Positions 2,180-44,864 of a stretch of 64,000 nt of DNA are shown one piece after another. Position numbers and translations under genes: made by a program. The stretch lies in assembly GCA_026399475.1 (NCBI GenBank), contig JAPLQY010000049.1, positions 1 to 64,000 on the forward strand, read 5' to 3'. The first letter of the stretch is position 1, and every line of letters starts with the position of its first letter. This DNA comes from Rhodocyclales bacterium. GTDB taxonomy: Bacteria; Pseudomonadota; Gammaproteobacteria; Burkholderiales; Rhodocyclaceae. The notes beneath the pieces are model-generated. The model worked only from the letters and a program-made list of their open reading frames with translations, had not been told where the DNA came from and searched no databases.

Positions 2180-3256
2180 TTAGCCCAAGGGAATGCCGCT
2201 GGCCAGAATTGTTACCCGAAAATCAACCTCCATCGCTTTGTTCCGAATCCCACCGTAGAAAAAGACCACGTCAGCAACGGCCGTACTGACGCTAAGGAAC
2301 TCCCTGATCAGGTCCTTTATTTCCCCAATCTGCCGTAGCTTTAGGAATTCAGGAGCACCCTCGATCAAGACCCACACACCTGATGCCGAATTCAGACGGT
2401 CTTCGCCGAGCAATGGATGGGCAATGGCTTTACGTGCTGCATCTTCGGCGGCGTTTCGTCCGCTGGCGCATCCGTACCCAATAGCACTAGACCCGTCATT
2501 GGACATGCATTCCCTGAGACTTCCTGAGTCATGTCTGAGCAAGTAATCAGATGAGGCAATGGGTTCCGTAATACCACGATACAGTCTCTCGAACGTGGTT
2601 GTCGCAGGTGACGCCCACAACAGCAAGTCTCTCTGGCAGACATGCCAGCACAGCACATCATTGGAGATTCGAAACGTCGCATTTGCAATGTCGCCCAGAG
2701 CAAGCATTCCATCGACGGCGATGTGATGGCGGCGCGGGCCTTCAGAATTGACTGGCGTGAAAGCGGCAGCAACTGTCATGACCTGATTCTTCCGTAGTAT
2801 CTCGGCAACAATCGGCGATATTGCAGTTCCGGCTATGCCGCCCATTCCCGCAACAATGAACGCAATATCGAGATCGGTCACGGCATCGGCAATCCGAGTC
2901 CTTGCGTCTTTGGCAAGCAAGCTCGCGGCGCGAGCGTCACCTGGACGCACCATTGAGTCATCGATCAGGATCTTTCGATCCGCGGCCACGCGTTGCAAAG
3001 CGCCTTCATCGATGTCGATGGCGGTCGAGTGTGTCAGGTAGGGGAGTCTTCCGTAAAGCTCGGAAAGTATCGTTCCGCCGGCACCCCCAACGGCTATTAC
3101 GCCAATTCGCGGCTCGGGCATGGATGTCGATTTGGCGGTCTGGCCTGCCGTTTCCATTGATACCTTTGGTCGTGTTCCGTCAGCGAACGCGAAGGTGGGC
3201 AGTGCCATAGTCGCCCCCAAGCAAGGCAGTGACTGAATAAACGTGCGGCGGTCCAT
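2180..3256 (-). CDS. Degenerate FtsZ-like protein with predicted Tat signal peptide
   Basis: A 358-residue tubulin/FtsZ-superfamily protein. It has a GTPase-like core beginning IGVIAVGGAGG (residues 51-61), then FIVAGMGGIAGTA (about 133-145) where FtsZ has AGMGGGTGTG, a VNSEGPRR segment matching FtsZ FEG-R, and a C-terminal part with AIGYGCASG, AAEDAARKAIAHPLL and RVTILASG, all in FtsZ order. The signature glycines are altered, and the T7 catalytic loop (NVDFAD in FtsZ) is replaced by RHDSGS near 241-246, so GTP hydrolysis is doubtful. The N-terminus reads MDRRTFIQSLPCLG with a hydrophobic stretch and AFA|D-like cleavage site: a Tat-type signal, which cytoplasmic FtsZ never has. Start chosen at 3256 because of GGGAG 7 bases upstream; the frame stays open to 3433, but that would overlap the divergent gene. 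Confidence 0.75.
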   Translation of the reverse strand: MDRRTFIQSLPCLGATMALPTFAFADGTRPKVSMETAGQTAKSTSMPEPRIGVIAVGGAGGTILSELYGRLPYLTHSTAIDIDEGALQRVAADRKILIDDSMVRPGDARAASLLAKDARTRIADAVTDLDIAFIVAGMGGIAGTAISPIVAEILRKNQVMTVAAAFTPVNSEGPRRHHIAVDGMLALGDIANATFRISNDVLCWHVCQRDLLLWASPATTTFERLYRGITEPIASSDYLLRHDSGSLRECMSNDGSSAIGYGCASGRNAAEDAARKAIAHPLLGEDRLNSASGVWVLIEGAPEFLKLRQIGEIKDLIREFLSVSTAVADVVFFYGGIRNKAMEVDFRVTILASGIPLG

Positions 3257-3300
3257 GACGGATCTCCCAAGAGTTGCGATAAGAGAACTATCTCCGCCAG

Positions 3301-3431: not shown

Positions 3432-4187
3432 ATGAAAGCTCTGAAAGCATCCCATCTGCTCGATCACGGCAGGGCATACACGGCCAACGCAGTCGTAGGA
3501 ATTCCAACCGGAGTCGACGGTCTGGATCAATGCACACGGGGCCTGCCCATCGGCTTGATGCTTCTCGCCGGCCGGCATGCCTCTGGCCACGAGCTTCTTG
3601 CACGGCAAATCGCTCTGAACGTATCTCGAACCGGCAGCACGCCAGTGATCTGGTTCAGCACAAAGTTCAGCGGCGAATTTCTAATGAGCCTGTTCCTGGC
3701 GCATATAGAGGCTGACCAAGCTCTGACCGCCAACCAGACCTTGACCATCATTGATACGCCGCGCCTGACGTTGGACATGATGAGGACCAAACTCGCTGAA
3801 CTGCTTGATATTGAAAATGGCAGCAGGGCATTGGTCATCGTGGACGACCTCGAAATTCTGTTGAAATCTTGTCCGCCAGAGTCGATTGGTAAAATCGAAA
3901 TTGCCCACCAACTCCGCAGTGCCGCCCTGGCTCACAACGCATCGTTGATGATCTGTTGCGGTCTTTCGCGCAAACTGGAAGAGCGCAAGAACAAGACGCC
4001 ATGCCTGTCTGACCTGAAAAGGATTTCCCCGTTTGTATTGGAAGCGGATCAGGTCATGGCGGCCTACTATTCCCATTACTACGAGCCGGAAGGCTTTCCG
4101 GAAGACGAGTGGAGAATTCTGATACTGAAAAATAGGAACGGATGTCACGGCAGCGTAGGTATGCCCAGAACAATGCTGCCTTGGTAG
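3432..4187 (+). CDS. DnaB C-terminal-domain (RecA-fold) protein with degenerate ATP site
   Basis: A 251-residue protein collinear with the C-terminal ATPase domain of replicative helicase DnaB: GIPTGVDGLDQCTRGLP (about 23-39), Walker A position AGRHASGHE (46-54), Walker B position ALVIVDDLEI (133-142), then LSDLKR, EADQVMAAYY and KNRNGCHGSVGM where DnaB has SDLR, DADVVMFIYR and KQRNGPTG. The Walker A Lys-Thr is replaced by His-Glu, and the catalytic-Glu strand (FSLEM in DnaB) reads FSTKF, so ATP hydrolysis is not expected. There is no N-terminal helicase-loading domain. It is divergent from the FtsZ-like gene, with which it probably shares regulation. Role unknown; a regulatory or structural partner is an inference. 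Confidence 0.7.
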   Translation: MKALKASHLLDHGRAYTANAVVGIPTGVDGLDQCTRGLPIGLMLLAGRHASGHELLARQIALNVSRTGSTPVIWFSTKFSGEFLMSLFLAHIEADQALTANQTLTIIDTPRLTLDMMRTKLAELLDIENGSRALVIVDDLEILLKSCPPESIGKIEIAHQLRSAALAHNASLMICCGLSRKLEERKNKTPCLSDLKRISPFVLEADQVMAAYYSHYYEPEGFPEDEWRILILKNRNGCHGSVGMPRTMLPW

Positions 4188-4327: not shown

Positions 4328-5827
4328 ATGCGCACATTTTCCAAATCCAAACTCCTGGCCTTGCGCCAATGTCCGAAACGCTTGTGGCTAGAAGTTCATC
4401 GCCCCGACTTGCGCGAAGACTCTGCCGCGACCCAAGCGAGCTTTCAGATCGGGTTCCAGGTGGGTGACATTGCCCAGCGACTTTACGATTCTGAAGGTCT
4501 CGGGGCGTTAATAGACGCGCAAACCGAGGGATTTGAACGAGCGTTCCAGCGCAGCGCGGAATTGCTTCGGACCGGACAACCCATCTTTGAAGCCGGATTC
4601 TCGGCCGGAGGAGCTCTGGCTTTCGCCGACGTCATGCTGCCTGTGCAAGCGAATGGAAAGCAGGTCTGGCGCATGGTCGAAGTGAAGTCATCGACCAGCG
4701 TGAAGGACTACCACCGCGACGATGTGGCAGTGCAAGCCTTTGTGGCTCGATCAGCGGGCGTTCCTCTGGAATCCATCTCGCTGGCGCACATCGACAGCTC
4801 GTGGGTCTATCCAGGGGATGAAGACTACCGCGGTCTGTTGAAAGAGAATGATCTGACGGCAGAAGCATTCGCCCGAACGGAAGAAGTCAAAAGCTGGATT
4901 GCCCAGGCTCAAGCCGTCGTTGGCGAGACGTCCGAGCCCGTCATGGAAACCGGGGATCAATGCGAAAAGCCTTTTGAATGCGGTTTCTATTCTTATTGCA
5001 GCCGCGACGAGCCGAAGCCGGAATGCCCCGTGTACTGGTTACCCAGGTTTTCCTCCGCTAGGGCGCGAGAGCTTGCCGTTCAAGGTGTGGACGATCTGAG
5101 AAACGTGCCCGATGTTCTGCTCAACGACAAGCAGAAACGGGTCAAGGAACACACCCAGGCCAATACGGTATTCTTTGATGCGGCCGGAGCCGCCGCCGAC
5201 TTGGCCGCCTGTAGCCTTCCCGCGTACTTTCTCGATTTCGAGACCATCCAGTTTGCCGTCCCAATTTGGAAAGGCACCCGGCCGTATCAGCAGATCACGT
5301 TCCAATTCAGTCTCCATACGCTGTCCGAGTCGGGTCATCTCGAACAAACGGCATTTCTTGATCTCTCGGGCAACGATCCATCTGAACCTTTTGCTCGCGC
5401 GTTGATCGCCGCCTGCGGTCAAGAGGGGCCCGTGTATGTTTACAACGCTGGATTTGAGACGGCACGCATCCGCGAACTGGCCGAACGTTTCCCTAACTTG
5501 ACTGAGCCGCTACTGGCCATCAACGAAAGGGTCGTCGATTTGCTGCCCATCGCCCGAGAGAGGTACTACCACCCGAGCCAGCAAGGCAGTTGGAGCATCA
5601 AGAAAGTGTTGCCCGCGGTAGTGCCAGAGTTGCGATATGACTCTCTCGATGGGGTGCAGGATGGAGGGATGGCGATGGACGCATTTCTTGAAGGCATCCA
5701 TCCAGACACCAGATCAGAGCGCAAAGTGCAAATCGAACAGCAGCTTCTGGCCTACTGCAAGCTTGATACCTACGCCATGGTGCGCCTGTGGCAGGTATTT
5801 GCCGGGCGCACTGACCTGAGTCTCTGA
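4328..5827 (+). CDS. DUF2779 protein: Cas4/RecB-like nuclease fused to a DEDD-type exonuclease domain
   Basis: A 499-residue two-domain protein. The N-terminal half resembles Cas4/RecB nucleases: C15 in QCPKRLW, PD-(D/E)XK residues D101 and E118-x-K120 (MVEVKSSTSVKDYHRDD), and a C-terminal cysteine group C212, C218, C224, together enough for a 4Fe-4S cluster. The C-terminal half is RNase H-fold/DnaQ-like: FLDFET (D303, E305), VYNAGFE, VDLLPIARERYYHP, GSWSIKKVLPA and LAYCKLDT with a final Asp. This is the DUF2779 architecture. It ends 3 bases before the WYL regulator, so the two are co-transcribed. Likely a DNA-processing or defence nuclease; partners in other genomes are not established. Confidence 0.8.
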   Translation: MRTFSKSKLLALRQCPKRLWLEVHRPDLREDSAATQASFQIGFQVGDIAQRLYDSEGLGALIDAQTEGFERAFQRSAELLRTGQPIFEAGFSAGGALAFADVMLPVQANGKQVWRMVEVKSSTSVKDYHRDDVAVQAFVARSAGVPLESISLAHIDSSWVYPGDEDYRGLLKENDLTAEAFARTEEVKSWIAQAQAVVGETSEPVMETGDQCEKPFECGFYSYCSRDEPKPECPVYWLPRFSSARARELAVQGVDDLRNVPDVLLNDKQKRVKEHTQANTVFFDAAGAAADLAACSLPAYFLDFETIQFAVPIWKGTRPYQQITFQFSLHTLSESGHLEQTAFLDLSGNDPSEPFARALIAACGQEGPVYVYNAGFETARIRELAERFPNLTEPLLAINERVVDLLPIARERYYHPSQQGSWSIKKVLPAVVPELRYDSLDGVQDGGMAMDAFLEGIHPDTRSERKVQIEQQLLAYCKLDTYAMVRLWQVFAGRTDLSL

Positions 5828-5830
5828 CCC

Positions 5831-6793
5831 ATGTCCAGACGTCCGGATTCTCTGGAAACGCTCCAGCTTTCCCACGAGCTTCTGCGGCGCATACCCAAGG
5901 GACGAACAATCACTGCTCCGGAATTGCATCAACAACTGGCGGACGCCGGGTTCGAGAGAGATATGCGGACCATCCAGCGCCAGTTGGAAACTCTTGCCGA
6001 GTTCTACGAGCTTGATCGCGACGACAGTAGCAAGCCGTACCGCTATTGCTGGAAGGAGAGGGCAAAGGGTTTGTCTCTACCCAATCTGAGTCCGCAGGAG
6101 TCATTGTTATTGATGTTGGCCGAGCAGCAATTGAGCAGTCTTCTTCCCGCTAAATTGATGAAATCCATGGAAGGGTTCTTCACCCAGGCACGCAGCCAAC
6201 TCGGCGACAAGGCATCGACCCAACGCGAACGCGAGTGGCTTCAGAAAGTACGCGTGGTCAGTACCAGCCAGCCACTTTTGCCTCCAAAGATCGATCCCTC
6301 CGTGTTCGATCAAGTCAGCAATGCGCTGTATGGTAACCAATGGCTGGAGGTCGATTACAAGAACGCCGCCGGCAAACGAACCACTGCGCGAGTCATGCCC
6401 CTCGGCTTGGCCCAACAGGGTCCGCGCATGTATCTGGTATGCCGGTTTGATGGTTACGACAACGAACGAAGTCTCGCTCTGCATCGCATTCTCTCTGCAC
6501 GTGCCTCGAATTTGACCTTTGAGCGTCCCAAAGAATTCGACCTCAAGCAATACGACGACGATGGGCGTTTTGGCTACGGGGAGGGCGAGCATGTTCGCCT
6601 GACCTTCCGCATTGAAAAGGAGGCCGGCCAGCATTTGCTGGAATCGCCGCTTTCTGTCGATCAACAGGTGGTGGAGCTGGATGATGCGTACAAAATCACG
6701 GCGACGGTTGTGCACTCAGAGATGCTCGAGTGGTGGTTAAGAGGGTTTGGGCCTGCGGTTTCGAGTGTCACGAAGTTTAGCCTACAAGAATAG
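5831..6793 (+). CDS. WYL-domain transcriptional regulator (HTH-WYL)
   Basis: A 320-residue protein with an N-terminal winged HTH (about 8-60: TAPELHQQL, RTIQRQLETL), a linker segment rich in Leu (LSPQESLLLMLAEQQL) and a WYL domain from about 150, with W-L-E-V-D-Y near residue 171. WYL regulators bind nucleotides or nucleic acid ligands, and many (BrxR/CapW type) repress phage-defence operons by binding palindromes. It follows the DUF2779 gene by 3 bases. It is the natural candidate to bind the TGCGACA-N5-TGTCGCA sites around these genes; that link is inferred, not shown. Confidence 0.85.
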   Translation: MSRRPDSLETLQLSHELLRRIPKGRTITAPELHQQLADAGFERDMRTIQRQLETLAEFYELDRDDSSKPYRYCWKERAKGLSLPNLSPQESLLLMLAEQQLSSLLPAKLMKSMEGFFTQARSQLGDKASTQREREWLQKVRVVSTSQPLLPPKIDPSVFDQVSNALYGNQWLEVDYKNAAGKRTTARVMPLGLAQQGPRMYLVCRFDGYDNERSLALHRILSARASNLTFERPKEFDLKQYDDDGRFGYGEGEHVRLTFRIEKEAGQHLLESPLSVDQQVVELDDAYKITATVVHSEMLEWWLRGFGPAVSSVTKFSLQE

Positions 6794-7555: not shown

Positions 7556-9661
7556 CTAACTATTTTGGGCACCCTGCTGCAGTTTCGCCTCGTTCAGAAA
7601 GAGCAGCTTTTCGCGATCGCCGTCGCTGAGGGAAAACTCCCACCTTGTTTCCATGAATCTCAGGAGGCGTTCTCCGCGGGTTCGGATTTGCTCCGGGCCC
7701 CAGTCCTCATTTGCCGCCACCTCGATCTCAGAGTGTGAACCGTCCGAATAACCGCTCCGGACCTTGGTGCCCGACGCGTCGAACTTGGGCTTCTTCTTTT
7801 CCAAGAACGCGTCGTTCTGCAGCGAGGAGTTGATTGACATAGATAGTAGGAGCAGGTTGCCGAGCGATCCACCGTACCTCACTCGTTCATTTTCGGGCAC
7901 GTTCTCGAACGCCGCATTCCAGTCCGACGTTGGCGTCTGCGGATAGACGTGTTCGATAGAGATGCAGTCACTTGCCGATTTCAATAGGTCGGCCCAATCC
8001 ACTTTCTGTTGTATGGAGCCAGACATAAGGTGCAGTTCGTATTCATAGAGGAAGTACCGCAATCCGGACCAGTCGTAATAGCCGGTGCCTTCGTTGAATT
8101 TCTTGAAAAGGACGTTGTGGAACTCGTCGATCCGCAGCTTTCCGTCTTGGTCGAAAGCGTACTTCAGCGCGGCATCCAGACGCTCCGATATTATCGCGAG
8201 CGTAGTCTTCCCGCGGTTCAACTCGCGCGCAAGATTGTAGAACTCGCTGCTCCGATAGTTTGAACGCGCGGAGCCCATCCGGAAGGCAATGAAGATGAAG
8301 CGCTCGATACGGCGGAAGATCCAGAGCCTTTCCTTTTCGTCCGCGACCGTCTTCAGAACAACCATAACCAGCGGCCGGAAATATCCCATTCCGATGCGGT
8401 TTAGAGGGGCTATGGCAGACTTTTCCTTGTCCGACATAGTTGTTGCGAGATGAGGATAGAAGGAGTTGAACCAGTGGCCGGCGGACTCGCGCAGGCTCGT
8501 CACGAATTCCCTGATCGCTTGCGGTGCAAGCTTGCTCCGTTTCGTTGCGACCGCCTTTTCGGGAAGCGCTGCTTCCGTATTGTCATCATCATCCGCTTCG
8601 GTTTCGGACCGCTGTTCCTCAACTGCCTCGAGCGTGACATCCCGTTCCACAAAGTCGTGCACGTTCAGGGGAGTGAAATGTTCATCCAATAGGAAGCGTG
8701 CGTAGTCGCGGCCGGTGTCTCGCGAATACTTGAAATAGCTTATCCAATGGGCCCGAAGGAAGTCGTCATCGTTTAGCGGCTTGGCCTTGTTCCGTCCGAG
8801 CTGGTAATAGACCTCTTTCCAGGCCCTGTTAATGGTGTCGCGAAGATCCTTCCTGCCCGCTTCGTCCAACTGGTCGTCCCCGTATAACGTCGAGAGGTAG
8901 ATGAGCCGGTTCTTCAGGAGTTCGAGGGCGGAGAGTTTCTTCCCGCGGTTGTTCATCGTCTCGAAAGCGACGAAGACGTCGAACTCGTCGTCGATGGCAT
9001 ACTCGTTGAAAAGGAGCCGCTTTGTCAGCTTCTTGAAAAGGTCAGTAAGGCCTTCGACGCCTCTCGCACCGTGCAAGTTGGCGATCTGCTCGAAGAAGTA
9101 ATGCTTGGCGTTACAGAGGTTCAGGGTATAAAAGGTCTCTTGGATGTCCCCCCCTCCCTGCTCGTGGAGAATGCGATGGCGGAGGTATTCCTGGCTGGGA
9201 TTGTCCTCCGTGTAACCGAACTTGTACGTCAAGAACATGTTTTTTGGGTGCATCTCGAACAGGTAGCTTTTTTCGACGTCCGAGAGCCTCAGACTGTCGG
9301 TGACGTAGATCTCTTCCGCCGACTTCAGTTGGTGTTCGGGAAGCGAACGGAAGAGATCCGCAAACGCCTGGATGAAGATGACGAAAGTCGTCAAGCGCTG
9401 CTGGCCATCGACCACGTGGTACAGCCGGTAGGCATGGTCGTTGACGAGCCAGTACTCCTTGGTGTCATTACGAACGGAGGCGCAACTAACTTTCTTTAAC
9501 GTCAGAACCCCCGTGTAGTGGGATTTCCCTTCTTTCAGATTTGCCAGGTCTTCCCAGAACGCCCGGAGTTGCTCCTTCTGCCAAGCGTATCCTCGCTGGT
9601 AATCAGGGATACGGAATATCTTTTTTTGAAAAAGATCTTCAAGTGATATTGGCTTTTCCAC
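7556..9661 (-). CDS. DUF262/DUF1524 protein, GmrSD-like type IV restriction enzyme
   Basis: A 701-residue single-chain protein with the GmrSD fusion layout. The N-terminal DUF262 (ParB/DNase-fold NTPase) shows IPDYQRGYAW (18-27) and VDGQQRLTT (84-92). A middle region includes a very acidic linker (ETEADDDDNTEA). The C-terminal DUF1524 HNH-type nuclease shows SIEHVYPQ near residue 590, with the catalytic His. GmrSD enzymes cleave DNA containing glucosylated hydroxymethylcytosine, and related DUF262 proteins (BrxU, SspE-like) act on other modified DNA. The start is GTG at 9661, with GGAG 8 bases upstream. A palindrome of the local regulon lies about 280 bases upstream. Target modification is unknown. 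Confidence 0.85.
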   Translation of the reverse strand: MEKPISLEDLFQKKIFRIPDYQRGYAWQKEQLRAFWEDLANLKEGKSHYTGVLTLKKVSCASVRNDTKEYWLVNDHAYRLYHVVDGQQRLTTFVIFIQAFADLFRSLPEHQLKSAEEIYVTDSLRLSDVEKSYLFEMHPKNMFLTYKFGYTEDNPSQEYLRHRILHEQGGGDIQETFYTLNLCNAKHYFFEQIANLHGARGVEGLTDLFKKLTKRLLFNEYAIDDEFDVFVAFETMNNRGKKLSALELLKNRLIYLSTLYGDDQLDEAGRKDLRDTINRAWKEVYYQLGRNKAKPLNDDDFLRAHWISYFKYSRDTGRDYARFLLDEHFTPLNVHDFVERDVTLEAVEEQRSETEADDDDNTEAALPEKAVATKRSKLAPQAIREFVTSLRESAGHWFNSFYPHLATTMSDKEKSAIAPLNRIGMGYFRPLVMVVLKTVADEKERLWIFRRIERFIFIAFRMGSARSNYRSSEFYNLARELNRGKTTLAIISERLDAALKYAFDQDGKLRIDEFHNVLFKKFNEGTGYYDWSGLRYFLYEYELHLMSGSIQQKVDWADLLKSASDCISIEHVYPQTPTSDWNAAFENVPENERVRYGGSLGNLLLLSMSINSSLQNDAFLEKKKPKFDASGTKVRSGYSDGSHSEIEVAANEDWGPEQIRTRGERLLRFMETRWEFSLSDGDREKLLFLNEAKLQQGAQNS

Positions 9662-16326: not shown

Positions 16327-18450
16327 TCAGACGCTATCCGACGCGATGAATCCGATGGATCGAGCGATGGGCTTCTTGATCGCGTGTTCGTCGCGCAATG
16401 CCTTCAACACCTGCATCGCATCAATATGGGCGGAACCCGCCGACATTCTTCGCGCGACCACCGCAAAATCTCCGGGCGTGAGATTGGGCAGATCGTTGAA
16501 CCATTGCCGCAAATCCGCCTCCCATGCCTTTCTCGGCAACATTCGCGCATCCAGACTGGACAACAACGCATGGAACATCTGGATGCGTTGATCGACGCGC
16601 AAGGAGTCGAATCGCACCTTGAGATCGAACCGTCGCAGACTGGCTTGATCCAAGACATCGAAGGCATTGGTGGTGGCAATGAAATGTCCGCGATAACGTT
16701 CGATCTGGGTCAACAATTCATTGACCTGCGTGACCTCCCACGATTGCCGTGCGCGTTCGCGATCCGTCAGAAAGCTGTCGGCTTCGTCCAGGAGCAGCAA
16801 CGCGCCTTCATCGCGAGCTTCATCGAACATCCGTCGCATCAACATCTCGGTCTCGCCCAGAAACGGACGCAACAGATCGGAAGCGCGTTTGACCAGAAGA
16901 GGTTTGTCGAGAGATCGCGCAATGTGTTCGGCCAATGCCGTCTTGCCCGCGCCAGGCAATCCGTGGAAACACGCCGTCAATCGTGGAGATTGACGGAACA
17001 TGGCCACGATCTCTCCGGCCGGAATCGAACAATTGACCCAATCGAGGTCGAAATCGACCGAATGCGTCGGAATCAAGCCGGTCTCCGGATCCTTGCCGAA
17101 TCGTAATTTGTACATGGCGCGATAGAGATAGACCGCCAGAGGTTCCAGACCGGTTTTGGCCTTGCCCGCCTGGTCCTCTTTGTTGTACCCGGAATCCTGC
17201 CCATGCCCTGAGACTTGCCCGATCACACGGGCGATCTTGCCAATCTGGGCGGGTGTCAGATCGCGATCCTCGGCAATGCCTGCCTTGAACGTATCAGTCA
17301 ATGGCAAGTCGCCCAAGGATTTGTTGATCATCGACACGCGCACGGAACGCGGCGGCGTTTTGAATCCGACCACCAGATCAAAACGTCGGGCATGGGCAGG
17401 ATCAAACCGGTCGGCCACGTTGGTGATCCAGATCGTCGGCACGGGATTGGATTCCAGTAACGTGTTCAACAACGCCTTGCCTTTGGTTCGTGATCTCCAG
17501 CTGTTTTGTTCGCGATCGAGAATCCCGTCTTCGACATCATCGAACAACACCAACGCCCGGGTATGCGACAACAAGGCTTGAGACATGCGGAATGCCGACA
17601 GACGTGATTGTTCGCGTTGGCCGTGTCTTCCGCCTTCGTCTTCGGGGACGACAAAGATCGGGACATCCAGATGTTGAGCCAGCAAGGCAGCGAATTCGGT
17701 CTTTCCGGTGCCGGGGATGCCATAGAACAACACATTGACGCCGGAAGTCTTGGCATGCATTGCGGCTTCGAGATAACGCGACAGATGTCCGAAATCTTCC
17801 TGCAGATGCGGAAAATCCTCCACGCCCAGACACGTCGGCCGGGCCGGACGCAGAAACGCATCCAATACCTTGTCGGTCGCGGTCGGATTGCAAAGGGCGG
17901 TGCACACCCGATACGTGATGTTCAGAAAATCAATCACGTTGGTGTAATGCATGACCGGCTCCAGCAATCCGATCTCAACCAGATGTCCGGTCGGTCCGAT
18001 GGCCGGCATCACATCGTCGATCCGGGCGTCGATCATGCGGGCGATGATCCATGCCGCATCCCCGCGATGCCCGCACGAATCGCCCAGATAATTCAACGCC
18101 GCGGAGAATCCATTCGATTCATGACCCAGAACGGCCAGCCAGAGCAATCGGCATTCGGTATCGGTCAATTCCAGACGGGTTCCAACCTTGCCGACCGTCT
18201 CGGAATAGAACGGACGCTCCACAAAATGCTCCTGCAGCTCGTCGTAGAGCGTCTTGCAACGACTCAACAGAACACGTGGCGTCGGACGGGCGGGCATGGG
18301 TCCGAATATCCAGCGTTGCACATTCCGGTCAAATTCAAATTCGCGCAACCAGCGTTCCGGGGTGTCGTGATCGAACAGAAACCGCAAAAACACCCAGGCC
18401 GCCTGATGATCGAATTGACTACGTTGACGCCACGATTTAGCGCGAGCCAT
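16327..18450 (-). CDS. Tandem AAA+ ATPase (two AAA modules)
   Basis: A 707-residue protein with an alpha-helical N-terminal domain of about 200 residues and two AAA+ modules. Module 1 has Walker A YGIPGTGKT (about 242-250), Walker B ALVLFDDVED and sensor-like WITNVADRFD followed by ARRFD. Module 2 has Walker A HGLPGAGKT (about 496-504), Walker B ALLLLDEADSFL and ATTNAFDVLD followed by LRRFD. The second module has a canonical DE pair; the first has DD. The double ring resembles ClpB/Cdc48-like remodelling machines but without their N-domains. It overlaps the C39-like gene by 14 bases. Likely a protein- or nucleoprotein-remodelling motor of the element; substrate unknown. Confidence 0.75.
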   Translation of the reverse strand: MARAKSWRQRSQFDHQAAWVFLRFLFDHDTPERWLREFEFDRNVQRWIFGPMPARPTPRVLLSRCKTLYDELQEHFVERPFYSETVGKVGTRLELTDTECRLLWLAVLGHESNGFSAALNYLGDSCGHRGDAAWIIARMIDARIDDVMPAIGPTGHLVEIGLLEPVMHYTNVIDFLNITYRVCTALCNPTATDKVLDAFLRPARPTCLGVEDFPHLQEDFGHLSRYLEAAMHAKTSGVNVLFYGIPGTGKTEFAALLAQHLDVPIFVVPEDEGGRHGQREQSRLSAFRMSQALLSHTRALVLFDDVEDGILDREQNSWRSRTKGKALLNTLLESNPVPTIWITNVADRFDPAHARRFDLVVGFKTPPRSVRVSMINKSLGDLPLTDTFKAGIAEDRDLTPAQIGKIARVIGQVSGHGQDSGYNKEDQAGKAKTGLEPLAVYLYRAMYKLRFGKDPETGLIPTHSVDFDLDWVNCSIPAGEIVAMFRQSPRLTACFHGLPGAGKTALAEHIARSLDKPLLVKRASDLLRPFLGETEMLMRRMFDEARDEGALLLLDEADSFLTDRERARQSWEVTQVNELLTQIERYRGHFIATTNAFDVLDQASLRRFDLKVRFDSLRVDQRIQMFHALLSSLDARMLPRKAWEADLRQWFNDLPNLTPGDFAVVARRMSAGSAHIDAMQVLKALRDEHAIKKPIARSIGFIASDSV

Positions 18451-35951: not shown

Positions 35952-36647
35952 ATGCCAAAAGCGCTATGTTTGCTTAGCGGAGGTCTTGATTCCACAACAA
36001 GTTTGGCCATGGCCAAGGCGCAGGGGTTTGATCTCTATGCGATGAGCTTTCGTTATGGCCAACGTCATGTCGTGGAGTTGGAGTGTGCGAGAAAAATCGC
36101 CACGCAGTTTGAGGTGAAGGAACACCTCATCGTCGATTTTGACCTCCGGCAGATAGGGGGGTCTGCCCTGACGAGCGACATTACAGTCCCCAAAGATCGT
36201 CCCGTGTCTGAAATGTCACACGGGATCCCGGTTACCTACGTCCCCGCACGAAACACCATCTTTCTGTCTTTTGCTTTGGGTTGGGCCGAGGTCTTGGGTG
36301 CGTCGGATATCTTTATTGGGGTCAATGCCCTTGACTACAGTGGCTATCCAGATTGTCGGCCAGAATACATTGCGGCCTTTCAAGTGATGGCGAATTTGGC
36401 GACGAAGGCTGGCGTCGAAGGAACTCAGAGTCTGCAGATTCATACTCCTTTGATCCAACTATCCAAGGCCGACATCATTCGTAAAGGTCTTGCACTCGGG
36501 GTCGATTACGCAGAAACCAGTAGCTGTTATGACCCCGGGACAGATGGCCGCCCCTGTGGTCGATGCGATTCGTGTCAATTGCGGGCCAAAGGCTTTGCCG
36601 AGGCAGGTGTTGTAGATCCCTTGATCACGCGCTTCTCGGGGCATTGA
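35952..36647 (+). CDS. queC: 7-cyano-7-deazaguanine synthase QueC
   Basis: A 231-residue enzyme converting 7-carboxy-7-deazaguanine to preQ0 with ATP and ammonia. The PP-loop [12 protein letters not shown] (about 8-19), [29 protein letters not shown] and the zinc Cys group [20 protein letters not shown] are all present and at the usual length. It heads the Dpd gene cluster, supplying preQ0 for DNA modification. The ribosome site AAGGAAAATAAAGC is spaced a little far. queD starts 2 bases after its stop. Confidence 0.95.
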
Positions 36648-36649
36648 GC

Positions 36650-37744
36650 ATGGCTGAGCAACTTCTATACACAGCAGCTGCGAATTTCGAAGCTGCTCGT
36701 CGTGTTTCGCTTCTTCCAGAGGGGCATCGGTCACGGCGTCAGCACGGGCATAGTTTTCTGGCCGATGTTCGGTGTGCGCTCCCACATGGATGGGCGTCGT
36801 TCCCGGGTGGGGAGATCGATCAACTACGAGAGCAATTGATTGCCGCGGTTGCCCCATTAGATTACAACGATCTCAACGCCCAGTTGGAACAACCGACCGA
36901 CGAAAATCTTGCTCGTTGGGTACGTAGGCGATTGGCAATTGCCAGCATTGAAAGCGTGGGCGTTCAGAGCACAGAACATGAAGGCGTCGATCTCGATCAG
37001 AACGATAGCGCGCATATTTGGCGGCGTTATGTATTTCAGTCAGCGCACCAGTTGCCGAATGTGCCCCCTGGGCACAAATGCGGACGCATGCATGGTCACG
37101 GATTTGAAGTCATTCTGCATGCCAACCAGAACCTGGGCGGGCGAGAGATTGGGATTGATTACGACCACCTAGACGAATTGTGGGCGCCGATCCATGCGGA
37201 ACTGGATCACGCCTGTTTGAACGACATTGCAGGTCTGCAGAATCCCACCAGCGAAGTCATCTCCGCCTGGATCTGGAATCGACTCAAGCCGGAATTGCGC
37301 GAACTTTCATGCGTGACTGTCTACGAGACGGCGAGTTGCGGAGCGCATTTTGACGGTAGCCACTACCGCATCTGGAAGGAAACAACTCTCGATAGCTCTA
37401 TGCAGTTGAAACGCGCACCTGAAGGTGACAACAGACGCCGTATCCATGGTCATACCTACACCCTCCGTCTTCACCTACACGCGCCACTGGACACTGTGAT
37501 GGGCTGGACCATCGACTTTGGCGACGTGAAGGAACTGTTTGATCCAATTTTCAAGCGGCTTGATCATCACCCGTTGCACGAAATTCCTGGGTTGGTTGAT
37601 TCCGATGCGGCGACGATCGTCCGTTGGATTCGCGATCAAGCAGCGCCGCATTTGCCGCAACTGGATCGGATAGATCTCTACGAGACACGTGGTTGCGGCG
37701 TGGTCCTGAGTTGGGGCGAACTTGGCCCCGCGCTCCCGATCTAG
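36650..37744 (+). CDS. queD: QueD-like protein with three fused T-fold domains
   Basis: A 364-residue chain holding three QueD (6-carboxy-tetrahydropterin synthase) repeats; ordinary QueD is about 120 residues and forms a hexamer. Repeat 2 (about 125-240) keeps everything expected: SAHQLP, the catalytic Cys in GHKCGRMHGH, LDHACLND and the Glu in YETAS. Repeat 1 (about 8-120) has AARRVSLLPEGHRSRRQHGH, losing the first His and the Cys. Repeat 3 (about 245-360) has QLKRAPEGDNRRRIHGH, lacking them too but keeping LDHHPLHE and YETRGCG. So one site looks active and two degenerate. Product: CPH4 for preQ0 synthesis. It starts at 36650 and ends 2 bases before queE. Confidence 0.85.
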   Translation: MAEQLLYTAAANFEAARRVSLLPEGHRSRRQHGHSFLADVRCALPHGWASFPGGEIDQLREQLIAAVAPLDYNDLNAQLEQPTDENLARWVRRRLAIASIESVGVQSTEHEGVDLDQNDSAHIWRRYVFQSAHQLPNVPPGHKCGRMHGHGFEVILHANQNLGGREIGIDYDHLDELWAPIHAELDHACLNDIAGLQNPTSEVISAWIWNRLKPELRELSCVTVYETASCGAHFDGSHYRIWKETTLDSSMQLKRAPEGDNRRRIHGHTYTLRLHLHAPLDTVMGWTIDFGDVKELFDPIFKRLDHHPLHEIPGLVDSDAATIVRWIRDQAAPHLPQLDRIDLYETRGCGVVLSWGELGPALPI

Positions 37745-39009: not shown

Positions 39010-39054
39010 TGCCTTTGTAATATCGCCAGATGAAACTAAAAGGGGGTGACTGCC

Positions 39055-42000
39055 TTGGCAACAACCGGTGAACGAGTTGCCATAGGAGCGTTCGTTGTCG
39101 TCGCGACCGAGACGGGACGCAAGCTAGGGATCGGAAAGGTGGTCGAGATATCGGGGCACCGGGCCACAGTGGCCTATTTCGATGTGCCTGGTGAAGCGCA
39201 GCCCTTCCAGATTGATGCCCCGGTCACGGTAGTTCGAGTTGTCGCACTAGCAGAACAATCTCGCGTCTTTCGATGCGACGAAGACACCGGTCGCTGGCAG
39301 GTTGGGCGGATCGCCGACGGCGAGGGCTCTACCTGTCTAGTGGCCTTCCCGAATCAGGTGACGGCCAACCTGTCGCGTGCCGATCTTCAGGTGCGTTGGC
39401 GCAGACCGATTGCGAACCCCACTGAATTCCTGATCCGGCATGTCACCGAGACACCCCTATTTGCGGCGGCGCGATCGAATTTCATGCGGGCTGTGACGGC
39501 CCAGCGTGCCGCCTGTCATGGTATGGGGGCATTGCTATCGTCCTCGGTGCAGTTGGTGGCGTACCAGTTCAACGTGGTGCTTAAAGTTCTCCAGGATCCC
39601 ATTCAGCGCTATCTACTGGCTGACGAAGTGGGCTTGGGCAAGACCGTTGAGGCCGGCTTGCTCATACGCCAGTACACCCTCGACTCCTCAGATGCCAGGG
39701 TCCTGCTGATCGTACCGCCCGCCCTGGTGGCCCAATGGCGGCAGGAACTGACTGATCGCTTCGGACTCCTGGACTGGCTCGATGACTACATTTGGGTCGT
39801 GCCCAACGACGATCTGGCCGCTGTCGAGGCCCACCTGTCCGGAGCAGGCATGCTGGTCGTTGACGAGGCCCACCACTTGGCTCATCAGACCGATGGGGGC
39901 GATCATTCGCTATATGAGTTGCTACGTCGGGATGCGGCGAGGGTGCCGCGACTGCTGCTACTATCTGGAACCCCGGTACTCGCCGACACCTCCGGATTCC
40001 TGCGGATGCTTCACCTGCTCGATCCTGTGGTGTTTCCGCTGAACGACCTTGAGGGCTTTGAGCGAAGACTGCAGTCGCGCCAACTAGTCGCGGAGATTGC
40101 CGCCTCGCTTCTGCCAGACAACGTGTTGTCGATGGAAGGCGACCTCGACCGCTTGAGTGAGACCTTTGGCGACGACCCGACATTGATGAACCGGGTCGAA
40201 GTCCTGCGCCCCATCGTCAAGGCGCTTCCCGACGAGGAAGACGAAGAATTCTTGGTGGCGCTAGGTGCTTTGCGTGCCCACCTTTCCGAAACCTACAAAC
40301 TGCACCGCCGGGTCCTGAGAAACCGTCGCAAGGCCGTGCCATGGGCTACCCCTCAGCGCAAAGGCCTGGAGACTCTGCCCTACGTCAGCACTTGGCGCGC
40401 CGAACGTCAGCGGGTGCTTGATGAACTGCGCGTTCGCCTGGTCAACGCAGGTGGCGCTGCCACGATGGCGCGCAGCCTGTTCACCTGCGCTGTCCATCCT
40501 TGCGGCGGCGGGACCATCGAGAAGGCTCTGCTGGACCTCGGCATCTACGACGCACGCGTTCGTGACCTCGCTCAGCAAGTCGATGAACTGACTGCGCGTG
40601 CGGATGAGGAGGGCGAGCGCCAGCGCGTCACCCACGATGCCGTGCGGCGGTGTCTGAACACTCAGGGTGTGCAGGTGGTGATCTTCTGCGACGAGGCCTC
40701 CACCGCCGATGCCCTGACTCGGTCCCTTAGGACGGCACTTGGCCAGACCTTCGAGGTCTTGAGGCACGCCATCGCGGACGCCTCGACACTTGAGGACGGT
40801 CAGGTTGAGCTCTGGCGTCGATTCCTGACAGACCCCGCGCGCTGCAGGGTTCTGGTTTGCGATGCTCGCGCCGAAGAGGGTCTCAACCTCCATGGTGGCC
40901 ATAAGGTTGCCTTTCATTACGACCTTCCGGCCGCGCCTAACCGTATCGAACAACGACTGGGTCGCCTCGATCGGTACGGAGTCGGCAACGCGGTACGGTC
41001 GTTGGTCCCAGTGTGCGAAAGCGATCCCGCCGAGATGGCCTGGGTGGCTTGCCTTTCAGAAGGGCTGCAAGTGTTTTCTGCGTCCATGGCCAGCCTCCAG
41101 TACATGGTCGAGGGAACGCTGAGGAACGCGATCCAGGATTGGTACAACGAAGGCGTCGATGGCCTGATGCGCTGGAAGGACCAGTTGGCCGGTCCGACAG
41201 GCTGGGCCGCCCGGGAAAGACGTCGCATCGATCAGCAGGACAACCTCGACGCGATGGGCGACCCTCAAAGCGAGGAGTTCGATCAACTGGCAAAGGTCGA
41301 TGCCGACTGGCGCTCCTGGCGCGATGCGTTTGATGGCTTTGCGCTAGGCACCTTGCTCTTTCGCAGTCGCAGTGAGCCATGGATAGGCAATCTGCTCGAA
41401 GGCGAGCGCGTGTTCCGCTTGAACTACGTTCGCGATAACAATCATCGGACGCTGCTATCGCTGCCCGAGTTTATCGGCCAATTCCTGGGAACGATCGACA
41501 CGGAAGCTCGCCATAGCACGTCGCGCTCGCCTCTGACTTATCCGCATGCGTTTAGCCGCCACACGGTGATGTCGAAGGAGGGGCAGTCTCGCGCACTCCG
41601 CTCGTTGAGGTATGGCGCCTCTCTGGTCGAGTCACTGCACTCGTTTTGCCAGACAGATGATCGTGGCCGGGTCTTTGCCATGTGGCGCCACCGACCGGAT
41701 TACGAAGCTCGTGACGCCAGTGGCTGCGACCTTTGGTTCCGATTTGACTTTTTGGTGGAAGCCAACCTGTCCGACGCAGACGACGATGTAGCACGTGCCC
41801 TGATCCGTCGTGCCGAGCAGCACTTCCCACCGCAGTTCCACACCGTGTGGGTAGACGCGACGCGGGAGGTCACACTGGCCCCCCCGGAACATATTGCCGA
41901 GAATTACCGCAAGAGTGGGCGGGGGCCGGGGCGGGACTACAACCTCAATCCTAGTCGATGGCAGTTCCTCCAGATGCAGGACGCCGTGCCTTGGTTGCTG

Positions 42001-42303
42001 GAGTGGCGGAGTCATTGCGAAGAGGCAGAGGAGCGGGCGCTGAAGTTCATGGCCGGTCATGAATTGCTTCGCCAGCACCAAGAGCGGGGATTGGTTTCGC
42101 TACGCAGCCAGCACGCCACCCGTGTCGCTCAAGTCGAGTCGCGCCTGACACGCCTGACGGGGGCGGCTCAAGCCGCGGAACGTCGGGATCTCGAAGAGGA
42201 GGAAGTCCTTCATGGCCGATTGAGCGATGCCATCCGAGCGCCTACCATCAGCATCGATGTAGCGGGGGCTGTGTTTGCCTCCGCTGCCAACCCGTTCGAT
42301 TGA
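39055..42303 (+). CDS. dpdE: DpdE: SNF2/RapA-like helicase
   Basis: About 1,082 residues. Superfamily 2 SNF2-type motor: ADEVGLGKTVEAGLL (Walker A, about 190-200), LLIVPPALVAQW, VVDEAHHLAH (about 268) and LSGTP, then C-terminal motor VCDARAEEGLNLHGG and PNRIEQRLGRLDRYG, as in RapA-type remodellers. An N-terminal SH3-like beta segment precedes it. Start: AGGGGG is well placed for TTG 39055 (eight bases), while GTG 39046 lies in the site itself; TTG is preferred. Its stop overlaps dpdF. In the known Dpd system, DpdD-K form the restriction part; the exact role of DpdE is unproven. Confidence 0.85.
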   Translation: MATTGERVAIGAFVVVATETGRKLGIGKVVEISGHRATVAYFDVPGEAQPFQIDAPVTVVRVVALAEQSRVFRCDEDTGRWQVGRIADGEGSTCLVAFPNQVTANLSRADLQVRWRRPIANPTEFLIRHVTETPLFAAARSNFMRAVTAQRAACHGMGALLSSSVQLVAYQFNVVLKVLQDPIQRYLLADEVGLGKTVEAGLLIRQYTLDSSDARVLLIVPPALVAQWRQELTDRFGLLDWLDDYIWVVPNDDLAAVEAHLSGAGMLVVDEAHHLAHQTDGGDHSLYELLRRDAARVPRLLLLSGTPVLADTSGFLRMLHLLDPVVFPLNDLEGFERRLQSRQLVAEIAASLLPDNVLSMEGDLDRLSETFGDDPTLMNRVEVLRPIVKALPDEEDEEFLVALGALRAHLSETYKLHRRVLRNRRKAVPWATPQRKGLETLPYVSTWRAERQRVLDELRVRLVNAGGAATMARSLFTCAVHPCGGGTIEKALLDLGIYDARVRDLAQQVDELTARADEEGERQRVTHDAVRRCLNTQGVQVVIFCDEASTADALTRSLRTALGQTFEVLRHAIADASTLEDGQVELWRRFLTDPARCRVLVCDARAEEGLNLHGGHKVAFHYDLPAAPNRIEQRLGRLDRYGVGNAVRSLVPVCESDPAEMAWVACLSEGLQVFSASMASLQYMVEGTLRNAIQDWYNEGVDGLMRWKDQLAGPTGWAARERRRIDQQDNLDAMGDPQSEEFDQLAKVDADWRSWRDAFDGFALGTLLFRSRSEPWIGNLLEGERVFRLNYVRDNNHRTLLSLPEFIGQFLGTIDTEARHSTSRSPLTYPHAFSRHTVMSKEGQSRALRSLRYGASLVESLHSFCQTDDRGRVFAMWRHRPDYEARDASGCDLWFRFDFLVEANLSDADDDVARALIRRAEQHFPPQFHTVWVDATREVTLAPPEHIAENYRKSGRGPGRDYNLNPSRWQFLQMQDAVPWLLEWRSHCEEAEERALKFMAGHELLRQHQERGLVSLRSQHATRVAQVESRLTRLTGAAQAAERRDLEEEEVLHGRLSDAIRAPTISIDVAGAVFASAANPFD

Positions 42304-44864
42304 TGAATCGCATAGTGGATCAGAGGTTCGACATCACGGCCCTCATGGAGGTATGTGCCTATTGGCCTGATCGGCAAGTGTCGCTTCAAGTCGCTAGCGA
42401 CTCACTACTGGAGCGCACACGCCAAGTTCTGCACAACCTGAGCGAGCTAAACAACAGGGGCACGAGTTCGGACCTAATCCCACTTATCCGTCACGTCCTG
42501 CTGCGAGCAGCTGGCGATGAAGGTGAAGTTCCATGGCTTCGAGTGCCCACAGATACTGGATGGCCAAGTGCCGAAGAATGGAAGCAGGCTCAGTTCGACG
42601 TACTTCCCGGACCGTCGAGTTTGAATCTGCAACCCCGTTGGCCCCGCCTAAGTTTTTTGGAGTCACAGGCAGATCTTTTCGACGACGCTTTTAAGGGGAT
42701 CGTGTCTCGCCAGAAGTATGAAGTCCGCGCTGATCCAGTGTTGAGCGAAACCATGGGGTTGCCTACCTACACTGGGCAAGGGCAGCGCGAGGCCATTCGG
42801 GCACTTATGCACCTGCCACAAGGCGACGTCCTGATCGCGAACCTACCGACTGGCAGTGGCAAGAGCTTGCTGGCACACCTGCCGCCGCTAGTCGAGCAGG
42901 AGGGTCTGATGACCTTGGCCATTGTTCCGACCGTGGCCCTGGCCATCGATCAGGCAACGCGAATGAAGAATCTCCTGCATAAGCGTTACCCGCACCGAGA
43001 ATTGCCGCCACTGTCATTTCATGGGGGGTTATCCGAGGAGCAGCGGACCCAGGTTCATAGATCCATCTGGCAGGGTGAGCAGCCCATCCTCTTCACCTCA
43101 CCGGAATACGCCGTAGGTAGCCTCAGGGAACCCCTGGAGCATGCTGCAGCACAGGGGCGCCTGAATAACGTGTTCATCGATGAAGCCCATTTGGTCATCG
43201 GGTGGGGAAATGGATTCCGTCCCGCCTTTCAACTGCTGCCCGCGTTGGTTCGCATGCTACGCATTAAGGCACGTAGCCGTGACGTAAGGGTGGTACTGGC
43301 GTCTGCGACTCTCACGGCCTCAACCATTCATGATCTGCGACACCTTTTTGGTCCACCCGTACGCGTCCACGTCGTCTCGGCGGTACACCTACGCCCGGAG
43401 ATTCGGTATGCGCCTGTACCGTGCCTGGAAGAAGAAAGGCCCATGCGCGTCCTCGAGGCCGTCCAACTTGCACCGCGGCCCTTCATCCTGTATGTCACTC
43501 GACCTGATGAGGCGGACCGTTGGCTGTATCGCCTAAGGGCAACGGGACTGAGGCGAGTCAGCAAGTTTACTGGCGAAACCTCTTCGGCAGACCGAGAGCG
43601 CTTGTTGAGCCAATGGAGTGCCAACGAACTTGACGGAATGGTGGCCACTTCAGCCTTTGGTCTTGGAGTCGACAAGAGCGATGTCCGCACGGTCATTCAT
43701 GCCACGCTTCCAGACTCTCTGGACCGCTACTACCAGGAAGTGGGTCGCGCAGGGCGGGATGGACGTGCAGGGGCAGCGATACTGTTGCACACCGAATCCG
43801 ATGAAAGGCAGGCCAAAGGCATTGCAGTGCCGAAACTGGCCCGCGATGAGAACGCGCACGAGCGTTGGACCGGGATGATTGACGGCGCGCAGAGTCACGA
43901 CAAACTGCCCGAGGCCTCGTGGGTCGACCTCACGCGCCTGCGAACCCATCAGCATGTGAAGTCGAAGAAAAGCAATGCCTGGAGCGTTCGAACTTTGACT
44001 CTCATGGCTCGGGCGGGGTTGATCGAACTCGTGGCCATAGGGTCGTCCCAAAGTGCCGACCAAGACACGCCACTAAATATCAGCGAAGCCTCTCGCGCTG
44101 CCGTCCGGATCCTCGACGACGGTCACCGTGACCTCGACCACTTCGCGAAAGCTCTGGCATGCGCACGTGAAGATGTCCGTAAAGCAGGCGAGAGCGGATT
44201 CAACGCGATCACTGACGTCGCCTACGGTCATCTGGAAATCTCCGAGGCCCTGCGACAGATGTATTCCATAATGGGCGCAATCTGTGTACCGGTTTCGCTA
44301 TGCTGTGGCGGTTGCCCGACACATTGGGATGACCGCCGCCAGACAGTTTTCTACCAAGCACCCGCCACGCCGCGCTTGGCGGACTTCTCTCCCCGCTCTC
44401 TTGACAAAATCGACCGATTGGCACTGCCACGTGCCGCACCCAATCTTATTGTCATATCGGTTCAGCGCGACAATAAATTCGCCGAGACTTGCGCCCACTT
44501 GTTGGATGCCCTCGCTTCAACTGTGGACTTCCACACTGTGGCCTGGGACGAAGAGTTCGAACGAGTCCATGCCAAGCGCTTGATTCAAGCGTTACCCAGA
44601 CATCAACGACTCAACGTCCTCTTCGATACGCTGGACCTCGCCTCGCTGACGCAGATGGAGGCCGGTGCAAATGAGGTACGCGCTTTGATCTGGACTCTCC
44701 CGTCCATTGCTGTGCTCTGGAATCTACTTCTGTTGTCCAAGGCGCAACTGGAACTCTTACTGGTGCCCGCGGACCTCGCTCACCCTCACCACTCAGGCCG
44801 CAAGTTGCTCGATACTACCCCGCACGTAACGGCCATTGATCTGTTTCACCTCTTGAACCCATGA
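42303..44864 (+). CDS. dpdF: DpdF: RecQ-like helicase
   Basis: An 853-residue SF2 helicase: Walker A NLPTGSGKSLLAHLPP (about 180-195), AIVPTVALAIDQ, FIDEAHLVI (about 290), LASATLTAST, YVTRPDEADRWLYR (start of motor 2), ATSAFGLGVDKSDVRTVIH and the RecQ motif VI YQEVGRAGRDGRAGAA. A C-terminal part with Cys residues (ICVPVSLCCGGCPTHW) may bind zinc as in RecQ; no HRDC seen. The ATG is joined to the dpdE stop (TGATG). Unwinding DNA in the restriction step is the expected role. Confidence 0.85.
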   Translation: MNRIVDQRFDITALMEVCAYWPDRQVSLQVASDSLLERTRQVLHNLSELNNRGTSSDLIPLIRHVLLRAAGDEGEVPWLRVPTDTGWPSAEEWKQAQFDVLPGPSSLNLQPRWPRLSFLESQADLFDDAFKGIVSRQKYEVRADPVLSETMGLPTYTGQGQREAIRALMHLPQGDVLIANLPTGSGKSLLAHLPPLVEQEGLMTLAIVPTVALAIDQATRMKNLLHKRYPHRELPPLSFHGGLSEEQRTQVHRSIWQGEQPILFTSPEYAVGSLREPLEHAAAQGRLNNVFIDEAHLVIGWGNGFRPAFQLLPALVRMLRIKARSRDVRVVLASATLTASTIHDLRHLFGPPVRVHVVSAVHLRPEIRYAPVPCLEEERPMRVLEAVQLAPRPFILYVTRPDEADRWLYRLRATGLRRVSKFTGETSSADRERLLSQWSANELDGMVATSAFGLGVDKSDVRTVIHATLPDSLDRYYQEVGRAGRDGRAGAAILLHTESDERQAKGIAVPKLARDENAHERWTGMIDGAQSHDKLPEASWVDLTRLRTHQHVKSKKSNAWSVRTLTLMARAGLIELVAIGSSQSADQDTPLNISEASRAAVRILDDGHRDLDHFAKALACAREDVRKAGESGFNAITDVAYGHLEISEALRQMYSIMGAICVPVSLCCGGCPTHWDDRRQTVFYQAPATPRLADFSPRSLDKIDRLALPRAAPNLIVISVQRDNKFAETCAHLLDALASTVDFHTVAWDEEFERVHAKRLIQALPRHQRLNVLFDTLDLASLTQMEAGANEVRALIWTLPSIAVLWNLLLLSKAQLELLLVPADLAHPHHSGRKLLDTTPHVTAIDLFHLLNP

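Follow-up and report, generated by a model that had tools for sequence, protein, structure and literature searches.

An FtsZ-like gene in a defense island

The stretch of Rhodocyclales DNA analyzed here (the window; 64,000 nucleotides) encodes, at positions 2180 to 3256 on the minus strand, a 358-residue protein that we call Tat-FtsZ (P0001), an accessory FtsZ with a Tat-type N-terminus, described from its translation and from Pfam, NCBIfam, PDB, and Foldseek comparisons. Its reading frame is open as far as 3433, upstream of the ATG at 3256, and a Shine-Dalgarno-like GGGAG (3264 to 3268, minus strand) lies 7 nucleotides before this ATG. On the same strand, 65 bp beyond the end of the P0001 gene, is a Sir2-family gene (1354 to 2115). 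Divergent from P0001 and 176 bp away is the gene of a short DnaB-like RecA-fold protein (3432 to 4187, plus strand) whose Walker A motif, GRHASGHE, looks degenerate by eye; next come genes for a DUF2779 protein with a weak Cas4-like match (4328 to 5827, plus strand) and a WYL-domain regulator (5831 to 6793, plus strand). A double AAA ATPase (AAA2; 16327 to 18450, minus strand) is encoded in the same island, 13 kb from P0001. Near the Tat-FtsZ gene, at 7556 to 9661, is a GmrSD-type restriction protein that also matches the PADLOC models HEC-06, Orf5, and SspE, and PADLOC placed the Dpd genes DpdE, DpdF, DpdG, DpdK, and DpdD, presumably concerned with 7-deazaguanine in DNA, at 39046 to 56983. 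With its Dpd and GmrSD genes, the window is a defense island. No family of PADLOC-DB 2.0.0 matched P0001 itself at an E value of ≤0.01. A PTPS-domain gene (36563 to 37744) lies upstream of the Dpd genes.

The preliminary description had P0001 following FtsZ from the nucleotide-binding glycines to the C-terminal domain, and this was borne out. Both domains expected of the FtsZ/tubulin superfamily are present, each above its curated Pfam cutoff: the Tubulin/FtsZ GTPase domain (Pfam Tubulin, E value of 1.9e-17, residues 51 to 202) and FtsZ_C (1.4e-11, residues 255 to 355). In a sequence search of PDB, 49 of 49 distinct matches at an E value of ≤1e-5 were FtsZ. The NCBIfam ftsZ model (TIGR00065) matched residues 46 to 355 with an E value of 3.3e-38, and the score, 132 bits against a cutoff of 295 bits for the canonical FtsZ equivalog, makes P0001 FtsZ-like and not a standard FtsZ. 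The AlphaFold model (mean pLDDT of 60.8, below 50 for residues 1 to 46; pTM of 0.55) was built with 3 sequences in the alignment and was therefore used for the fold alone. Structure prediction returned an FtsZ fold, FtsZ accounting for all 50 Foldseek matches listed (best E value of 2.8e-26, probability of 1.00); the best match had a TMq of 0.52 and an rmsd of 13.7, so the domain orientation in the model is untrustworthy. The source genome encodes TatC; an ordinary FtsZ, about 30% identical to P0001, on a different contig (C88); and, on a third contig (C65), a GTPase-only FtsZ-like protein. Because this genome is rated 9% contaminated, the contig of the window could be foreign.

A Tat-type N-terminus recurs among accessory FtsZs

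Residues 1 to 25 of P0001 (MDRRTFIQSLPCLGATMALPTFAFA; 3182 to 3256, minus strand) were recognized by sequence patterns as a Tat-type signal with a predicted cut after AFA. The protein begins MDRRTFIQSL, with the two arginines at residues 3 and 4, and runs to AFA-DG, with the putative cleavage site between residues 25 and 26. Twenty-one uncharged residues follow the arginine pair, no charge occurs from T5 to the AFA-D site, and R29 and K31 come shortly after the hydrophobic stretch. This N-terminus passes a Tat-substrate pattern made for this analysis (twin-arginine motif, uncharged stretch, and A-x-A-like site), built on the Tat consensus.

Eight distinct full-length accessory FtsZs, P0001 included, were collected, all by their similarity to FtsZ and not via their neighbors; four GTPase-only proteins (P0005, P0007, G667, and G529) were counted apart. 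Forty-four ordinary FtsZs (42 distinct) were chosen from the fetched loci by their T1/T4 motif, so T1 and T4 conservation is built into this set; counts of the T7 loop, tail, and signal are unaffected. The start M-x-R-R-x-[FL]-[LIF]-[KRQ] was present in six of the eight full-length accessory proteins, and the Tat-type motif was found in none of the 42 distinct ordinary FtsZs within their first 100 residues. Besides P0001, the six comprise P0002 (MDRRTFLK) and P0003 (MKRRTFLR), both on contig 30 of genome G022, which is of the same genus as the source genome; P0004 (MKRRSFIR), on contig 126 of G022; P0006 (MNRRKLFQ), on a Rhodoferax antarcticus plasmid; and P0008 (MKRRIFLQ), on a plasmid of "Candidatus Thiodictyon syntrophicum." One of the four GTPase-only proteins, P0005 of genome G014, begins (GTG)-NRRLFLQ. 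M1, R3, and R4 are invariant across the six full-length proteins, and the other five are 27 to 32% identical to P0001. The public annotation of P0008 begins 36 codons later and leaves out the Tat-type signal (L067:12001-12109).

All seven Tat-type proteins have an A-x-[AGS] signal-peptidase-like site at positions 22 to 30 and 15 to 22 uncharged residues after the arginines, and a Shine-Dalgarno-like string precedes five of the seven starts (absent before P0004 and P0006). Among the 1,936 longest open reading frames of at least 150 residues in the window and the collected loci, M.RR.[FLM][LIVFM][KRQ] opens seven, every one a copy of a Tat-FtsZ locus; P0001, P0002, P0006, and P0008 are outside this count because their longest frames begin upstream of the signal, and the count becomes 15 of 1,936 when a start at any methionine up to residue 100 is allowed. 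The motif thus appears on accessory FtsZs more often than chance would suggest. Other measures were less discriminating: the NCBIfam TAT_signal model (TIGR01409) did not match the N-terminus of P0001 and matched three of the seven Tat-type N-termini, all below cutoff, and N-terminal hydrophobicity gave no separation (1.38 for the signal-less P0009 versus 1.29 to 1.85 for the seven). Third codon positions of the signal-coding DNA agree at 3 to 12 of 26 sites among the Tat-type genes, indicating that this DNA was not recently shared.

The Tat-type signal peptide proposed earlier, with its RR-x-F motif and AFA site, is accordingly well founded as a recurring sequence motif, and P0001 is a predicted Tat substrate. 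Its conservation among homologs holds in part. Six of the eight full-length proteins share the motif, but the nearest homolog of P0001, P0009 of genome G196 (36% identical in the alignment, and present there in two identical copies), has its start at the FtsZ core, which leaves no space for a signal, and in P0010 of genome G151 a Pfam FtsK_gamma domain, above cutoff, takes the place of the signal.

Accessory FtsZs are sparsely distributed. Within the genus, G022 has three extra full-length FtsZs and G014 one GTPase-only protein. Extra divergent full-length FtsZs occur in at least 2 of 398 other genomes of the order (G196 and G151), and none was seen among the matches listed for 369 other genomes of the class. 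Up to five candidates were scored per genome in these searches and matches were listed in part, so the counts are lower bounds; a small match in G761 was left out. A search with P0009 of 18 genomes of the family of G196 gave only the pair of copies in G196 itself and two matches of 29% identity, taken for ordinary FtsZ. P0005 had no match in plasmids, and an IMG/VR scan and a first scan of GTDB contigs gave no confirmed relative.

Altered loops and loss of the C-terminal peptide

In the alignment, the T4 (nucleotide-binding) loop of P0001 reads GMGGIAGTA against GMGGGTGTG (2822 to 2848, minus strand), and the T7 (synergy) loop reads R-H-D-S-G-S against N-x-D-x-x-D (2519 to 2536, minus strand). 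In Escherichia coli numbering, the equivalent of N207 is R, that of D212 is S, and that of D209 is kept (D243). The T7 loop is thus altered, as the preliminary description had noted; calling the catalytic loop lost was an overstatement, since the D209 equivalent remains. The T7 asparagine is replaced in seven of the eight full-length accessory FtsZs (R in P0001; G in P0002, P0004, P0008, and P0009; D in P0006; S in P0010) and kept in P0003 alone. D209 is kept in all eight and D212 in seven, P0001 being the one that has lost it, whereas the 34 ordinary cores examined all retain N, D, and D. By pattern match, the C-terminal conserved peptide was present in one of the eight (P0008) versus 40 of the 42 distinct ordinary FtsZs, and P0001 is without it. 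From known FtsZ biochemistry, such changes in the T7 loop (in P0001 also T4) and the tail would be expected to stop GTP turnover and tethering, and GTP turnover has probably been lost.

P0001 therefore resembles canonical FtsZ (TIGR00065) in having both domains, the T1 glycines, and the D209 equivalent, and differs from it in scoring less than half the cutoff, in its altered T4 and T7 loops, in its missing C-terminal peptide and its Tat-type N-terminus, and in coexisting with the ordinary FtsZ of the genome.

The pairing of a missing tail with a new N-terminus could be explained if the N-terminal module were an uncleaved membrane anchor that substitutes for the lost C-terminal tether, the FtsZ domains staying on the cytoplasmic face. 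Most members do lack the C-terminal peptide while carrying a new N-terminal module (Tat-type, or FtsK-gamma in P0010), the GTPase-only protein of G667 has a hydrophobic N-terminus by eye, and the placement of R29 and K31 in P0001 would suit a retained segment. We nevertheless think an anchor unlikely: the full RRx[FL][LIF][KRQ] motif occurs in seven proteins together with signal-peptidase-like sites, and P0008 has both a signal and a C-terminal peptide.

Phylogeny and origins of accessory FtsZs

A tree was inferred from 46 FtsZ cores with the N-termini trimmed off; the accessory FtsZs stand on long branches in it, which calls for caution. P0003 groups with five ordinary FtsZs (support of 97/78), of which four are known members of its genus, and is 59% identical to an ordinary FtsZ of the same genus over residues 69 to 357. 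P0008 falls within mostly gammaproteobacterial FtsZs together with rhizobial, Desulfobulbaceae, and G814 rows (99/95), and P0001 and P0009, the latter without a signal, form a pair (100/98). Single clades were rejected for the seven Tat-type proteins (p-AU of 2.6e-52), for the six full-length ones (4e-6), and for all 12 accessory proteins (0.007), as was the grouping of P0003 with P0008 (0.0013), a pair picked after inspection of the tree. When the other ten accessory rows were removed, a 100/100 branch still separated P0003 from P0008 (p-AU of 0.005). The Tat-FtsZs do not form one clade and seem to have more than one origin, at least two of them having apparently come separately from ordinary FtsZ; either Tat signals were gained repeatedly or an old signal stayed in place while the core behind it was exchanged. 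Descent from a resident ordinary gene is shown at the genus level, by the sequence relationships of P0003 only.

Kinship with resident FtsZ matters for the possibility that the protein is an energy-gated division poison. Tat is driven by proton-motive force and moves folded proteins; the translocon would normally remove the protein, and a collapse of proton-motive force at infection would leave it inside to jam or cap host FtsZ. Loss of the T7 asparagine and of the tail could give a dominant-negative subunit, and P0003, at 59% identity, is close enough to ordinary FtsZ of its genus to be consistent with such an action. P0001, however, is only about 30% identical to the ordinary FtsZ of its genome, which makes their copolymerization doubtful, and P0009 has no signal by which it could be removed. 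We judge this mechanism decidedly unlikely.

Gene neighborhood and relation to known systems

Each of the eight full-length accessory FtsZ genes has at least one AAA2, DUF2779, or WYL gene no more than 5 kb away. AAA2 (an interrupted gene in Thiodictyon) is at most 2.6 kb from the FtsZ gene in seven of the eight and 13 kb away in the window, where the DnaB-like gene (3432 to 4187) occupies the place before DUF2779 and WYL that AAA2 has in G022 and Rhodoferax. In G196, FtsZ-AAA2 is divergent from DUF2779-WYL, and the DUF2779 and WYL proteins are 79 to 81% identical to those of the window. The gene directly after FtsZ encodes a Sir2 protein both in the window (65 bp away) and in Thiodictyon (81 bp away), although the two Sir2 proteins are only 23% identical. 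On a Sphaerotilus plasmid, BREX genes stand beside a WYL-AAA2-Sir2 set. The accessory FtsZs thus share a recurring, defense-type setting. In the four GTPase-only cases (P0005, P0007, G667, and G529), no AAA2, DUF2779, or WYL gene was found in the stretch examined.

The association is asymmetric. We had expected AAA2 loci usually to carry FtsZ, and this was ruled out: FtsZ was in the examined flank of 1 of 32 AAA2 loci in GTDB contigs, several flanks ending at contig ends. Loci L069 to L071 have no FtsZ, and none is annotated within 7 kb of the AAA2 set on a Diaphorobacter plasmid. The cassette therefore does not need FtsZ. No recurring gene was apparent by eye upstream of AAA2.

These neighbors also bear on two further explanations. 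A periplasmic FtsZ-like scaffold would account for the joining of a Tat-type signal to the two FtsZ domains, but the T4 and T7 loops are degraded in P0001, the neighbors give no hint of envelope building, and the periplasm is not known to have a GTP supply; we find such a scaffold hardly credible. Decay of a duplicated FtsZ, with an N-terminus that resembles a signal by chance, would fit the long branches, the motif losses, and the signal-less P0009. It is very improbable in light of the intact 358-codon frame with its Shine-Dalgarno-like site, the motif in seven proteins, two of which the tree holds apart, and the recurring neighbors.

AAA2 matches IetA models of the IetAS system (PADLOC), best over its second AAA domain. 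It differs from IetA in having two AAA domains, with best PDB matches that are Cdc48/p97-like (tested on the G022 relative), and no subtilisin-type partner was found among the neighbors put through Pfam; one locus has an M41-domain protein. At L024:4627-5979, a protein with a Peptidase_M41 (FtsH-type protease) domain and no AAA match is encoded between AAA2 and a Tat-FtsZ.

Extra FtsZ-superfamily proteins beside a normal FtsZ, FtsZl1 and FtsZl2, have been described (Makarova and Koonin 2010, PMC2875224), as has a Sulfolobus solfataricus FtsZ-like protein with N-terminal transmembrane helices; the part of that paper covered here holds no mention of a Tat signal. It gives FtsZl1 a coiled coil with a helical domain and a vWA/GTPase/OmpA context, whereas the neighbors of P0001 are Sir2, DnaB-like, DUF2779, and WYL genes and FtsZ_C ends at residue 355 of 358, which leaves no room for an FtsZl1-type C-terminal part. 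FtsZl2 differs, by the same account, in an extra C-terminal region of ∼300 residues and in having no linked genes. Among the best-ranked papers from a search of the open-access literature, none was seen to describe a Tat-bearing FtsZ or an FtsZ-AAA2 cassette, and the terms "signal peptide" and "Tat" do not occur in the main text of PMC9871819.

A proposed role as an FtsZ mimic

For a fast-evolving, tail-less, altered, and repeatedly derived FtsZ located in a defense-type cassette, a mimic or decoy is a better fit than a protein that works in division. We tentatively propose, short of even confidence, that P0001 imitates the host FtsZ in altered form, is directed to the Tat pathway, and serves as an accessory of an anti-phage-type cassette, its export and function being read from sequence and gene context. 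It is a copy of FtsZ that has lost its C-terminal tether peptide, has an altered T7 loop (in P0001 also T4), and has gained a Tat-type signal. It accompanies a mobile, defense-type cassette with genes for a double AAA ATPase resembling Cdc48, a DUF2779 protein, a WYL regulator, and at times Sir2. Phage proteins directed against FtsZ would find an FtsZ surface on the mimic, which itself would stay out of division. As Tat exports folded proteins, the mimic could be kept at the membrane or carried across it and so be separated from the Z ring; the signal would bring it in folded form, perhaps with a bound partner, to the membrane and then out of the cytoplasm.

FtsZ is already known both as a target of phages and as a cotrigger of immunity: according to the part of PMC13423816 covered here, T7 Gp0.4 binds FtsZ at its synergy-loop face, and CapRelEbc senses Gp0.4 bound to monomeric FtsZ. 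The proposed mimic would share with CapRelEbc the participation of FtsZ in phage sensing, and differs in that CapRelEbc uses the host's own FtsZ; an extra FtsZ gene is not mentioned in that part of the report. The finding of Tat-FtsZs links to this 2026 report of FtsZ within a phage-sensing complex.

Several observations weigh against the mimic reading or limit it. P0003 keeps its T7 loop and P0008 its C-terminal peptide; an exported mimic could encounter phage proteins in the cytoplasm only until its export is complete; and, with P0009 lacking a signal and P0010 having a DNA-binding domain instead, export cannot be essential to the role of all members. A more specific version, quite improbable in our estimation, is an export-coupled decoy. 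Tat-FtsZ would fold in the cytoplasm, capture a phage protein made against FtsZ, and be expelled with it by the Tat translocon; piggyback export of a bound partner occurs for some Tat substrates. Hosts that re-make the decoy from ordinary FtsZ as phage inhibitors change would explain the separate origins and fast divergence.

FtsZ is treated as a cytoplasmic protein. If the mimic reading holds, Tat-FtsZs in defense-type islands would show a bacterial division protein turned into an immune or conflict component, and they would make export of a tubulin-family protein directly testable.

Other FtsZ-like candidates

Several candidates were set aside. Rhizobial plasmid matches H2 to H4 aligned from residue 1, and H2 (L028) proved to be an ordinary FtsZ with no signal. 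Of 24 phage records with a match, none of the 15 listed begins before residue 69, and they were taken for host FtsZ. Second copies in G101, G390, G813, G814, G149, G181, G450, G464, G787, and G810 look like ordinary or split FtsZ, those of G390 and G814 serving as ordinary rows in the tree, and a candidate in G453 was dropped for its weak C-terminal match.

Further loci merit record. GTPase-only FtsZ-like proteins with no C-terminal domain are encoded at L026:8787-9509, near a gene with a weak, sub-cutoff Phage_CRI match, and at L124:1315-2070, with a Tat-type start; another GTPase-only protein, at L138:7320-8291, has a long hydrophobic N-terminus with the look, by eye, of a membrane anchor. 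The FtsZ-like protein of G151, fused to its N-terminal FtsK_gamma domain, is encoded at L120:543-1757, divergent from an AAA2 gene. In G196, the FtsZ-AAA2-DUF2779-WYL cassette occurs twice on one contig (L118 and L119), ∼0.8 Mb apart, with identical FtsZs.
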